Shown one piece after another: positions 30,758 to 33,799 of a stretch of 42,886 bases of DNA (positions are counted from its first letter, which is position 1; the number at the start of each line of letters is the position of its first letter). A program made the position numbers and the translations under genes. Source of the stretch: Deltaproteobacteria bacterium (GTDB lineage Bacteria > Desulfobacterota > Desulfuromonadia > Desulfuromonadales > BM103); NCBI GenBank assembly GCA_024279915.1, contig JAJRRB010000015.1, forward strand, positions 1 through 42,886, written 5' to 3'. Below the pieces are notes generated by a model. It was not told the origin of the DNA. It searched no databases and saw only the letters and a list, made by a program, of their open reading frames with translations.

Positions 30758-30775
30758 GGGTCAGGCTTGACAAAC
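30758..30775 (+). repeat. Left terminal inverted repeat of the RAYT element (intact)
   Basis: GGGTCAGGCTTGACAAAC. The same sequence, inverted, occurs at the other end as 33768-33757 plus 31747-31742, where it is interrupted after GGCTTG by the group II intron. The similarity continues weakly inward (GGAGTTAATGACC against AGACTTACTGCTC). The RAYT stop codon lies within this repeat. Confidence 0.85.
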
Positions 30776-31716
30776 GGAGTTAATGACCTTCGCCTTCAAC
30801 TGTTCAAGGGTTGCACTCAAATCGTCATCTTCAATAGCTCGAAGTTCAATCCGTCTGGCGGCTTGACTCAAACCGGAAAGGTCTCGATGAAGCTTCTTGC
30901 CTAAATCCTTCAGTTGGATTTCATCAGATTGCCTGACAAGCCAAGCTGCAACGGCACGTGCCTCAGCAAAAGGCCTACACCTGCCCTGGCCCGACAAAGA
31001 TTCAATGTTGATTCCATAACAATCACAAACGACATCAAGGATCGCATTCATCGTCATTGGTTTGGAGAAACGCTCTTCAGCGCGATTAAGTGCCTGTTCG
31101 ATAAAACGATCGTCGCCAAGAGCACGTCCCTCAAAGGAGCCGCGATGAAACTCCCTCTTGTACCCATCGTCAAAGCCATCCTGAACAAATCGCCAGTAAC
31201 CCTGCTGCGCTTTCTCCCTGTTGTTCTCATTCCACTGACTTAAAACCCAATCGGTTGTCAACCAAGGTGTTTTCCTTTGGCCGAGAAAACATCCATGACT
31301 TGACCACGGATAATTGTCAAGATCTTTGACTATGCCAGCTCGTAATGGATTGAGATGGATATAGCGTACGAGTTCCAGAAGGTAGTCATCCTCATCAATC
31401 AACAAGGCCTTAAAGCGACCCTGGAAGAGATGCCCCGTTCTTTTCTGCTTTCGGTTGATGTGCTGCGTGTAACGAAAGCTTAAGTTTTGCATAACTTTTG
31501 ACAGTGGGGTATCCGTGACTTGCAAGGCAAGATGAACATGGTTGTTCATGAGGCAATAGGCATGAACCCTGTGATGATATTTTTCCTGTCCTTGCTGCAG
31601 CAGGAGGAGAAACCTCGAACGGTCTGCGACGTCAAAAAAATGTTCTGGCCGCCGTTGCCACGAAGCATGACATGGTAAACGGCACCAGGATAATGGATGC
31701 GAGGTCTTCTTGGCAT
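30761..31716 (-). pseudogene. REP-associated tyrosine transposase (RAYT) with a -1 frameshift
   Basis: True start ATG 31716: MPRRPRIHYPGAVYHVMLRG, the RAYT N-terminus. After GNGGQNIF the frame shifts -1 in a run of seven T (31634-31640) and continues DVADRSRFLLLLQQG, the catalytic HUH (YCLMNNHVHLAL), the Tyr region (LSFRYTQHINRKQKRTGHLFQGRFKA) and a C-terminal HTH resembling DnaA domain IV (AEARAVAAWLVRQS). With one extra base the product is 318 residues. The slip site reads U UUU UUG, a classic -1 heptamer, so programmed frameshifting is possible; a dead gene or a base-calling error is the alternative. No RBS precedes the ATG. Confidence 0.85.
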
Positions 31717-31747
31717 GGAGAGAGTCTAGAGCAGTAAGTCTGTTTGT

Positions 31748-33756
31748 GTCGCGGTAGGAATACCGGTTACCCGGCACCCCCCGCACAGATCCCGGCGAGC
31801 GGATTTCCCGCACCGGGCTCCTGCCTCAGGTCGTAACGCGCAAACGTGCTTCTGGATAATCATGATAGATGCGCGGATATGGCCACCAGCGTTCCGCCAA
31901 GCGGTTGATGCGTTCCCAAGTGATTCGGTTTCGCTGACTACGTCGACGTACCGTCCACCACCAGTAGCGCATCAGATGATATCGAAAGGCACTGAGTCTG
32001 CGACCATTGCGTGGCACCCCATAATATCGGTAGTGTCCGAGCAATACAGTTCGCAGCCAAGCCCCCACCTCTTTGATGGGCCAGTGCATGCGTTTTCGTA
32101 GCTCGACTTTGAGTTCCTTGAGCTTGCGCTGCATCTTCTTTCGTATCGTTTGCCGCAGCACCGCGAACTTGCCTTTCCGGGTCTTGCCACAGATATGCGT
32201 AAAACCAAGAAAGTCAAAGCTCTCGGGCTTGCCGTCGCCACGCTCTTTCCGATTGCTCGCCGCATAGCGGCCGAACTCGATCAATCGCGTTTTGTCGGCG
32301 TGCAGCTCCAGATTGAACTCTCTGAAACGTTCGATGAGTTCGCTGTAGAACTGCTTGGCGTCGCTTTGGTTCTGGAAACCAACAACTATGTCATCAGCGA
32401 AACGAACCATAATCACGGCGCCGCGCCCTGTCTGCTTTCGCCACCGGTCGGCCCAGAGGTCGAACACGTAATGAAGGTAGATGTTCGCTAGCAAGGGGGA
32501 GATACTCCCTCCTTGCGGCGTTCCTTCCTTAACCCGTGTCAACTCGCCATCCTCCAGCACGCCAGCATTGAGCCACTTTTTGATGTGGCGCACGACGCGC
32601 TTGTCCGCAATGCGGTGCTCGACAAACTTCACCAGATGTTCGTGGTTGATGGCATCGAAAAAGCCACGTATATCGGCATCGAGCACCCAGTTCACCCTTT
32701 TCTTAGTAATTCCAACCGTCAACGCATCTCACGCGTTATGCGGTCCGCGTTTGGGTCGGAATCCGTGCGAGAAGTTCTTGAAATCGGTTTCGTAGATGCA
32801 ACCCATAACCTCGACGGTAGCGCGCTGGACTATCTTGTCTTCCAGCACAGTGATACCGACCGGCCTTTGGCTGCCATCTATTTTGGGCACGTAGGCCCGT
32901 CTCACCGGTTTTGCACGATACGCTCCGCGTTGCAGCCTGCCGGAGAGCTCTTGGAGGTTTTCTTCCAGTCGCTCGCCATAGTGCTGCCAGGTCACGTCAT
33001 CAACGCCTGCCGCCGCGTTACGCTTGATACCGCGATACGCTTGCTTGAGGTGGTCAATGTTGTAGACATGATGCCAGAGCGTAGTGAACTGCATCTGCTT
33101 ATCCTTTGTTGCTGCTTGCCGTATGCGTTGTAGCGCGTTTGGCAGGTTCACGGGGCGGCTACAGGAATCGTTCCTTGGCTGTTGCTGCGGTTTCCCGCTT
33201 TGTGCCCGTTTAGGATGATCCATACCTAATCCCTTTCCTGACGCTGTGTTCAGAACCTGTCTTGCTCCAACGCATTGCCTTTGGCCAATCCCCTTCTCTC
33301 CACCCGCTCCGCCGTTCACGGCGCACCGTGACTTTTGTTCGCGAACTTCTTCGATACTATGGGACTGTCCGACTTCCCGCTACCGTGCATCGCCGCCTTG
33401 ATCCGTTGGGATTCGCGGCGCGGGCCTCACCGCCATCGGTTGAGGCCGGTTGCGGGATCTCCCGGTTCCCGTGTGAGAAACTTGCATGCGTGCGCAGGGT
33501 CTTAGACCACGCGGGGCCGAATCGTCTCTCGCGAGAAAACGAGACGATCTGTGTTGCCTTCCGATAGGCTTGAAATCGTCGGCACCCCGGAAGAGTGTCC
33601 TTTCGCGGCTCAATATCCCGGCCCGCATGCCCCCTGTCAACGCTTCGCCGCCACCCTCACGGATGACCACGCATGACTCGGGGCCAATGTGGTTCGCTAC
33701 TCCTTCATTGTATGAGACTTTCACTCACTATCTCTCACCGGTTTTCACCGGCGCAC
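31748..33756 (-). mobile_element. Group II intron (about 2.0 kb)
   Basis: The 5' end is GTGCGCCGG (33756 downward), matching GUGYG. The 3' end is CCTACCGCGAC at 31748, after a domain V hairpin (31820-31788; GAGCCCGG...GGGATC) and a short domain VI. Flanks join to GGGTCAGGCTTG/ACAAAC, identical to the undisturbed repeat at 30758, which fixes both ends. A candidate EBS1, CAAGCCT at 33572-33566, is perfectly complementary to IBS1 AGGCTTG. It encodes a reverse transcriptase-maturase without an HNH endonuclease. Domain V ends GGATC where GGUUC is usual, replacing the expected G-U pair of the catalytic triad by G-A. Confidence 0.88.
31826..33223 (-). pseudogene. Group II intron reverse transcriptase-maturase interrupted by TGA
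   Basis: The first part (from ATG 33223) has RT0-RT2 features: KRNAAAGVDDVTW, YVPKIDGSQRPVGI and HGFRPKRGPHNA, then TGA at 32731-32729. The same frame resumes DALTVGITKKRVNWVLDADI with the rest of the RT: EGTPQGGSISPLLANIYL, catalytic MVRFADDIVVG (FADD in place of YADD), FDFLGF and the maturase X domain (WLRTVLLGHYRYYG ... ITWERINRLAERWWP). Homologues read HNALDALTVGI-like at the stop, so one codon (Leu expected) has become TGA. No HNH motif. 465 codons in all. Loss of function is likely unless the stop is read through. Confidence 0.85.
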
Positions 33757-33799
33757 CAAGCCTGACCCCTTATTTGACCCCTTATTCATGTTTTTCCTT

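Follow-up and report, generated by a model that had tools for sequence, protein, structure and literature searches.

A group II intron inside the terminal repeat of a RAYT element, and related introns at RAYT-type tips

Organization of the locus

The window, that is, the whole stretch of 42,886 nt analyzed here, contains a RAYT gene that sits between two inverted terminal repeats, the arrangement expected of a RAYT element. The right repeat is an intact 18-mer and includes the stop codon of the gene. Its inverted partner on the left is split after its 12th base (minus strand), the outer part GGGTCAGGCTTG being separated from the inner ACAAAC by an insert that runs from 33756 to 31748 and carries a reverse transcriptase gene (Table 1). 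With up to one mismatch, GGGTCAGGCTTG occurs three times in the window, against 0.29 expected. An earlier note on this DNA, made from the sequence alone, had described the same layout, with an intact repeat, a partner split by a 2,009-base insert, and a RAYT start 31 bases downstream of the junction, and all three points hold (the ATG is at 31716). Outside the intron, positions 33757-33781 contain two RAYT-type tips in tandem (GGGGTCAAATAAGGGGTCAGGCTTG, minus strand); similar tandem tips are found in another genome of the sample (G031).

Table 1. Features of the intron-bearing RAYT element (positions in the window)
Feature	Position	Strand	Basis
Group II intron, 2,009 nt, 5' GTGCGCC ... 3' CCTACCGCGAC	31748-33756	-	RF02005 and conservation drop at the 3' boundary
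Domain I part	33497-33721	-	Rfam RF02005 (group-II-D1D4-6), 188 bits
EBS1 CAAGCCT, intron positions 185-191, loop closed by GAT/ATC	33566-33572	-	Pairing and covariation
IBS1 AGGCTTG, last seven bases of the 5' exon	33757-33763	-	Sequence and covariation
5' exon GGGTCAGGCTTG, outer 12 bases of the RAYT left terminal repeat	33757-33768	-	Sequence
3' exon ACAAAC, inner 6 bases of the RAYT left terminal repeat	31742-31747	-	Sequence
Right terminal repeat, intact, GGGTCAGGCTTGACAAAC	30758-30775	+	Sequence
RAYT gene, Y1_Tnp and DnaA-type C-terminal helix-turn-helix, frameshifted near the N-terminal end	30761-31716	-	ORFs and Pfam
Intron reverse transcriptase gene, two open pieces, Pfam RVT_1 only	31826-33319	-	ORFs and Pfam
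In-frame TGA inside the reverse transcriptase	32729-32731	-	Comparison with 98 related loci
D5 and D6, bulged A at about 31755	31748-31835	-	Fold

Encoded proteins

The RAYT protein (30764-31645, minus strand) contains a Y1_Tnp domain (PF01797, 43.7 bits against a cut-off of 23) and, at its C-terminal end, a DnaA-type helix-turn-helix, Bac_DnaA_C. The start, MPRRPRIHYPGAVYHVMLRGN, and the rest of the protein are read in different frames, which indicates a frameshift. The match to the RAYT family model NF047646 (E = 1.6e-20, 73.5 bits) falls short of the cut-off of 80, the out-of-frame N-terminal part being the probable reason.

The intron protein gives two separate matches to TIGR04416 (group II reverse transcriptase/maturase), both under the cut-off, and the Pfam scan reports RVT_1 only and no endonuclease domain. 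The TGA between the two pieces means that the window intron has no intact reverse transcriptase/maturase; a residue is found at this place in 97 of 98 related loci (Leu in 92) and a stop in 1, some of these loci being two cuts of one place. Many group II introns have no working protein, so the broken maturase bears on the activity of the intron and not on its membership among group II introns. As both protein genes are interrupted, the window copy is probably dead and, taken by itself, is probably a dead nested insertion, with the proviso that this is a draft genome of 99 contigs in which both the TGA and the frameshift could be assembly errors.

Identity and ends of the intron

The insert matches the group II intron family RF02005 with an E value of 2.5e-55 (the gathering score is 49). 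Its ends, GTGCGCC at 33756 and CGCGAC at 31748, follow the GUGYG/AY rule of group II introns. The terminal 88 nt form D5 and, in D6, a hairpin from which UA bulges out; the bulged A lies 8 nt from the 3' end, within the 7 to 8 nt expected for group II. The 93 related D5-D6 hits end together (84 of them at profile position 84), which partly reflects how the profile was built, from a sequence trimmed to the end of the intron. For this reason, conservation on both sides of the boundary was compared in 85 related ends from these hits: it is 98% and 78% at positions -2 and -1 of the intron, and 42% and 34% at the first two bases beyond it. The 3' end is therefore defined independently of the repeat, and the group II intron with base-exact ends proposed in the earlier note is confirmed.

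EBS1-IBS1 pairing

The heptamer CAAGCCT in the domain I loop, which the earlier note had picked as EBS1, pairs with the last seven exon bases at all 7 positions, as expected of the group II interaction between a domain I loop and the 5' exon. A loop-reading pattern could be applied to 81 of the 106 introns with distinct 5' junctions (see below), leaving 25 loops unread. In these 81 introns, the longest EBS1 pairing run with the intron's own exon averages 5.80, against 3.67 with shuffled exons (the highest of 300 shuffles is 3.96), and the window loop pairs over a shorter run with every other intron's exon than with its own. The same interaction emerges from a covariation scan in which exon positions -1 to -20 were set against the domain I columns of 79 introns, with no place given in advance: the six best pairs are exon positions -1 to -6 with intron positions 185 to 190, in antiparallel order (z from 8.2 to 11.6). 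Thus, the scan selects the very intron positions of CAAGCCT, and the pairing runs and the six covarying positions lend support to EBS1-IBS1 homing, on which the note had relied.

The note had further suggested folding domain I as a check on the EBS1 position, and here the outcome is divided. The minimum-free-energy fold of a 56-nt piece does not contain the EBS1 hairpin. The three bases on each side of the loop nevertheless form 2.43 of 3 pairs on average in 70 loops, compared to 1.69 when shuffled (the highest of 500 shuffles is 1.89). Accordingly, the predicted loop rests on covariation and not on the energy fold of this piece. Among the 79 scanned introns, there is no consistent antiparallel signal for an EBS2 that would read the GGGG[AT]C motif discussed below, and no other intron-side reader of this motif was found in the scan. 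A conserved CCCC stretch of domain I, complementary to GGGG, was not counted, as introns at other sites have it too and the model structure shows it paired.

Empty sites and number of targets

The earlier note had proposed a search of related genomes for the joined site, and the unsplit 18-mer is indeed found, without any mismatch, in 8 other genomes of the order (G018, from the same genus, G031, G091, G098, G107, G111, G122, and G124). With up to two mismatches, it is present in 47 of the 136 genomes of the order, giving 122 matches versus 39 for the reversed pattern. Two of the three empty sites inspected (G018, G031, and G091) have a RAYT start directly behind them. That of G091 is followed by a RAYT gene with 68% DNA identity over 632 nt, and that of G031 by a RAYT-like start, judged by eye from 72 matched nucleotides; the repeat in G018 shows no match to the RAYT gene alongside.

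These sites are few in any one genome. In the 3.83-Mb genome of the window, GGGTCAGGCTTG has four exact copies, two of them in this element, and 45 copies at one mismatch versus 20 for the reversed pattern; across the order, the 18-mer at up to two mismatches has 0 to 14 matches per genome. The abundance of REP copies that usually marks a RAYT element is therefore not seen with the four exact copies of GGGTCAGGCTTG, and the earlier estimate of hundreds of targets per genome does not stand.

Relatives of the intron and their insertion sites

Relatives were collected by a reverse transcriptase search of named genomes, from which the best 80 of at least 550 confirmed loci were taken, and by searching twice with a covariance model of domain I, once in the order (24 of 136 genomes) and once in the phylum (51 of 395). 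Together, they yield 106 distinct 5' junctions, after exclusion of domain I hits that score below 45 bits or do not start at model positions 1 to 4, and of those with less than 20 nt upstream or with identical last 20 nt. Some of the regions compared were hand-picked among the hits, most of them scoring above about 55 bits. The covariation scan and the domain I tree use the 79 junctions of at least 180 bits, and the reverse transcriptase tree uses 64 introns with a readable piece of at least 150 residues. On the domain I tree, the label "RAYT end" includes one-off variants of [GA]GGG[AT]C, and on the reverse transcriptase tree it requires the exact motif.

Many of the relatives share a site type. 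Among the junctions of the GAAA type (introns that start with GAAAGCGCC or similar), 23 of 47 have GGG[AT]C exactly 14 nt before GCGCC, compared to 14 of 2,412 at other offsets. The domain I tree, for which the EBS1 columns were masked, places 15 RAYT-type sites in a single branch of 16 rows with support 88; 13 of these sites are exact, and those of L004 and L150 are one base off. The sixteenth row of the branch, L148, is 5'-truncated (the match begins at model position 4) and has no true junction, so that all 15 readable junctions of this branch are at RAYT-type tips. EBS1 varies within the branch to fit the different tips. The reverse transcriptase tree has a branch with 7 of 7 RAYT-type sites and support 97. 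On neither tree are the site types as clustered in any of 200 label shuffles as they are in reality.

The window intron starts with GTGCGCC, not with GAAAGCGCC, and lies outside the 16-row branch. It has GGGTC in the same -14 register, unlike all others of the 59 introns in its set. By domain I, the three introns nearest to it (L070, L269, and L314) are in unrelated sites, and the closest by reverse transcriptase among the best 80 of at least 550 loci (L067, 80%) has a different 3' exon, ATAAGTG, its 5' end not being on the contig. Accordingly, homing into a RAYT end may be a one-off event on the window's own twig. The branch next to that of the window intron includes L160, L272, and L271. The exon of L160, AAGGACGTCC, is one base off the tip AGGGACGTCC of a RAYT in the same genome; L272 lies against the outer end of a RAYT element, in the opposite orientation; and L271 has GGGGATCG and is the only member of that branch that satisfies the labelling rule, L160 and L272 having been recognized as RAYT sites by eye, outside this rule.

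These placements bear on whether ordinary homing simply met, once, a RAYT repeat that happened to match, the twig of the window intron having no tendency for RAYT ends. The other sites of L070, L269, L314, and L067 fit such a coincidence, as does the absence of an intron from the other two exact GGGTCAGGCTTG tips of this genome. Against it stand the sister branch, where all 15 readable junctions are at tips of this kind, and the adjoining branch, which holds L160, one base off a RAYT tip, and L272, at a RAYT outer end. We regard coincidence as unlikely, if far from negligible.

The proposal of the earlier note that this type of intron homes into RAYT/REP ends is thus right in kind, yet such homing belongs mainly to another branch than that of the intron for which it was made. 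Homologs consistently sitting in unrelated sites, which the note had named as evidence to the contrary, are what is seen for the nearest relatives and the opposite of what is seen in the sister branch.

The window's own genome also encodes an intron of the RAYT-tip branch, about 658 nt long and without a reverse transcriptase gene (L004, 2359-3016; G000:C56:31858-32515). It is located at the tip GGGGGCAGGTC, and its EBS1 loop is shortened.

RAYT-type tips as insertion sites

The link between this motif and RAYT elements was assessed in 54 RAYT genes from eight genomes. GGG[AT]C is found 125 to 65 nt upstream of the transposase domain in 44 of them (about 0.2 per gene expected), and in 31 of the 54 the 11-nt tip is found inverted downstream. 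Several introns can be matched to an intact element. In G035, the exons GGGGTCAAGTC and TACGGTTGAC, when joined, equal an intact RAYT end of the same genome (C1:1738781), and the 11-mer has 18 copies in this genome versus 4 for the reversed pattern. The exons CGGGTCGGACC and AAGTTAACTGCCTGAAATAAAACG of a G105 intron are joined in another RAYT about 3.5 kb away (37 of 38 bases), and the joined site of GGGGACATTCT and ATAATTCCCC from G124 is found upstream of a RAYT in G065 (29 of 33).

Broader counts are less favorable. The 9-mer of the intron exon is present in sampled RAYT loci of the same genome in 3 of 22 cases, the reversed 9-mer likewise in 3 of 22, and loci of other genomes give 46 of 396; these lists hold 1 to 11 loci per genome, with the window's own element and L153 falling outside them. 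Joined empty sites with at least 28 of 40 matches are observed for 4 of 13 introns, compared to 46 of 520 swapped pairs (a mean of 1.15 per 13) and 0 of 48 other introns, and none is found at this level for the remaining 9 of the 13. This threshold was adopted once a looser one had proved unable to separate the groups (own, 9 of 13; other, 28 of 48; swapped, 217 of 260). The RAYT identity assigned to the sites of most members therefore rests on tip motif and register, and not on a matched empty element.

The same data could be read to mean that the GGGG[AT]C motif, or a hairpin, is recognized as such, in the way that terminators are by class C introns, and that RAYT ends are hit as its carriers. 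The motif is constant where IBS1 is variable, and matches to RAYT loci of the same genome are not enriched, both in line with that reading. On the other hand, GGG[AT]C is the usual RAYT tip here (the 44 of 54 genes above), and in the four joined-site cases the 3' exon, too, continues as in RAYT loci. On balance, it seems doubtful that RAYT ends matter only as carriers.

Other intron branches and arrangements

A different branch, with the 3' end CTCCGAC, is found in antisense orientation exactly at Shine-Dalgarno sequences. Among its 17 members, 15 are usable, and 9 of these have a Shine-Dalgarno complement at the junction together with a nearby antisense ORF (at least 60 codons, start 6 to 23 nt from the junction), compared to 1 of 46 other introns. 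These nine loci are L073, L074, L075, L076, L077, L096, L099, L100, and L108 (5' junctions). Nine antisense ORFs, from eight of these loci and from L083, were scanned, and 6 of them contain a Pfam domain. The EBS1 sequences of this branch are themselves Shine-Dalgarno-like (GGAGG and AGGAGA). The literature matches listed include no report of introns antisense at Shine-Dalgarno sites.

In L125, the 5' junction of the intron adjoins the 3' end of a second family copy (exon CCCTACCGCGAC), and the two form a tandem pair.

Proposed mechanism

We consider it probable that the intron reached its place by retrohoming into the RAYT repeat and that it belongs to a large intron family for which RAYT-type tips are a recurrent landing site. 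An endonuclease-less group II intron would have entered the left terminal repeat, with EBS1 pairing with the tip of the repeat, and the insertion, placed behind base 12, neither duplicated nor removed any of it. For the RAYT/REP families, it is established or proposed that the transposase handles their ends as single strands. Because of this, and because no endonuclease domain is found in the intron protein, entry may have occurred by reverse splicing, probably into single-stranded DNA at the RAYT end. Splicing would then restore the repeat in the RNA. One sister branch uses such tips at every readable junction, in the same register, with GGGG[AT]C about 11 nt before the intron and EBS1 tracking the tips by lineage, and the common GGGG[AT]C might itself be recognized.

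Some loci invite the opposite order of events, in which an element that already carried the intron was mobilized by the transposase, the intron being cargo rather than an invader of the repeat. In L161 (2500-5700, minus strand), a reverse transcriptase piece lies between two copies of the same RAYT tip, and RAYT elements are found inside or against pieces of the intron family in L155 (3846-5100), L205 (reverse strand, 1340-1440), and L093 (600-800), a picture that would fit movement or trapping of intron DNA by the transposase. The window intron, by contrast, lies inside the repeat, with exact ends and a fitting EBS1, and unsplit repeats exist elsewhere, all of which makes capture very improbable for this copy.

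Retrohoming into the repeat thus remains the preferred reading for the window copy. Its extension to the whole family, namely, that RAYT/REP tips are a standing niche of these endonuclease-less introns, with EBS1 repeatedly retuned and the exposed tip supplying an entry site that needs no cut, we hold to be about evenly poised between right and wrong. The interest of the window copy lies in this wider pattern of RAYT-type tips recurring in an intron family with retuned EBS1 sequences.

Comparison with known systems

A 2015 review distinguishes three target specificities among group II introns of bacteria, namely, homing sites, terminators, and attC sites, the latter two being used by class C introns (PMC4424553). 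As described there, the class C (IIC) introns resemble the family studied here in having no endonuclease domain and in using a recurrent motif instead of one unique gene site; they differ in that the EBS1-IBS1 pairing is here six to seven bases long and variable between lineages, and the motif is a transposon tip. A 2022 survey of group II introns treats their distance to terminators (PMC8919778). Among the literature listings, which consist mostly of open papers seen in extract, nothing describes introns homing into RAYT ends or a branch at RAYT tips, except for one table entry (PMC1525189) considered below.

RAYT tips, if the present reading is true, would be a further target specificity beside these three. 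The correspondence between EBS1 and tip would form a visible code that can be traced across many lineages, and the introns a natural series of retargeted elements, useful for the study of how target choice evolves and for programmable introns. It would also connect two families of mobile elements for which single-stranded DNA may be a shared requirement.

The home site of RmInt1 lies in an insertion sequence. Like the introns described here, RmInt1 is an endonuclease-less retroelement (PMC8914252). The target here is instead a RAYT terminal repeat, and many different tips are used.

A 2006 study of REP-targeting insertion sequences has, in its table for Pseudomonas putida KT2440, the entry "Group II intron 2/9" with REP sequences (PMC1525189). 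The likeness is that mobile elements, group II introns included, are found in or by REP sequences; that entry is a minor count in one genome, whereas here the register is base exact, EBS1 covaries, and the pattern extends over a whole branch. A 2021 study describes, from Halorhodospira, endonuclease-less IIB introns of the class E protein type that lie near an IS200/IS605 element and attC arrays (PMC7923331). These introns, too, have no endonuclease and cluster with single-strand elements, and a role for hairpins was proposed; in the part of the paper available, however, the IS200/IS605 element lies beside the array, and insertion in its ends is not described.

Finally, IStrons likewise join a ribozyme to a DNA transposon, an insertion sequence (PMC4227781). 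Theirs is a group I ribozyme in a fixed chimera, whereas the intron described here is a separate group II retroelement that would have invaded the repeat of a transposon.
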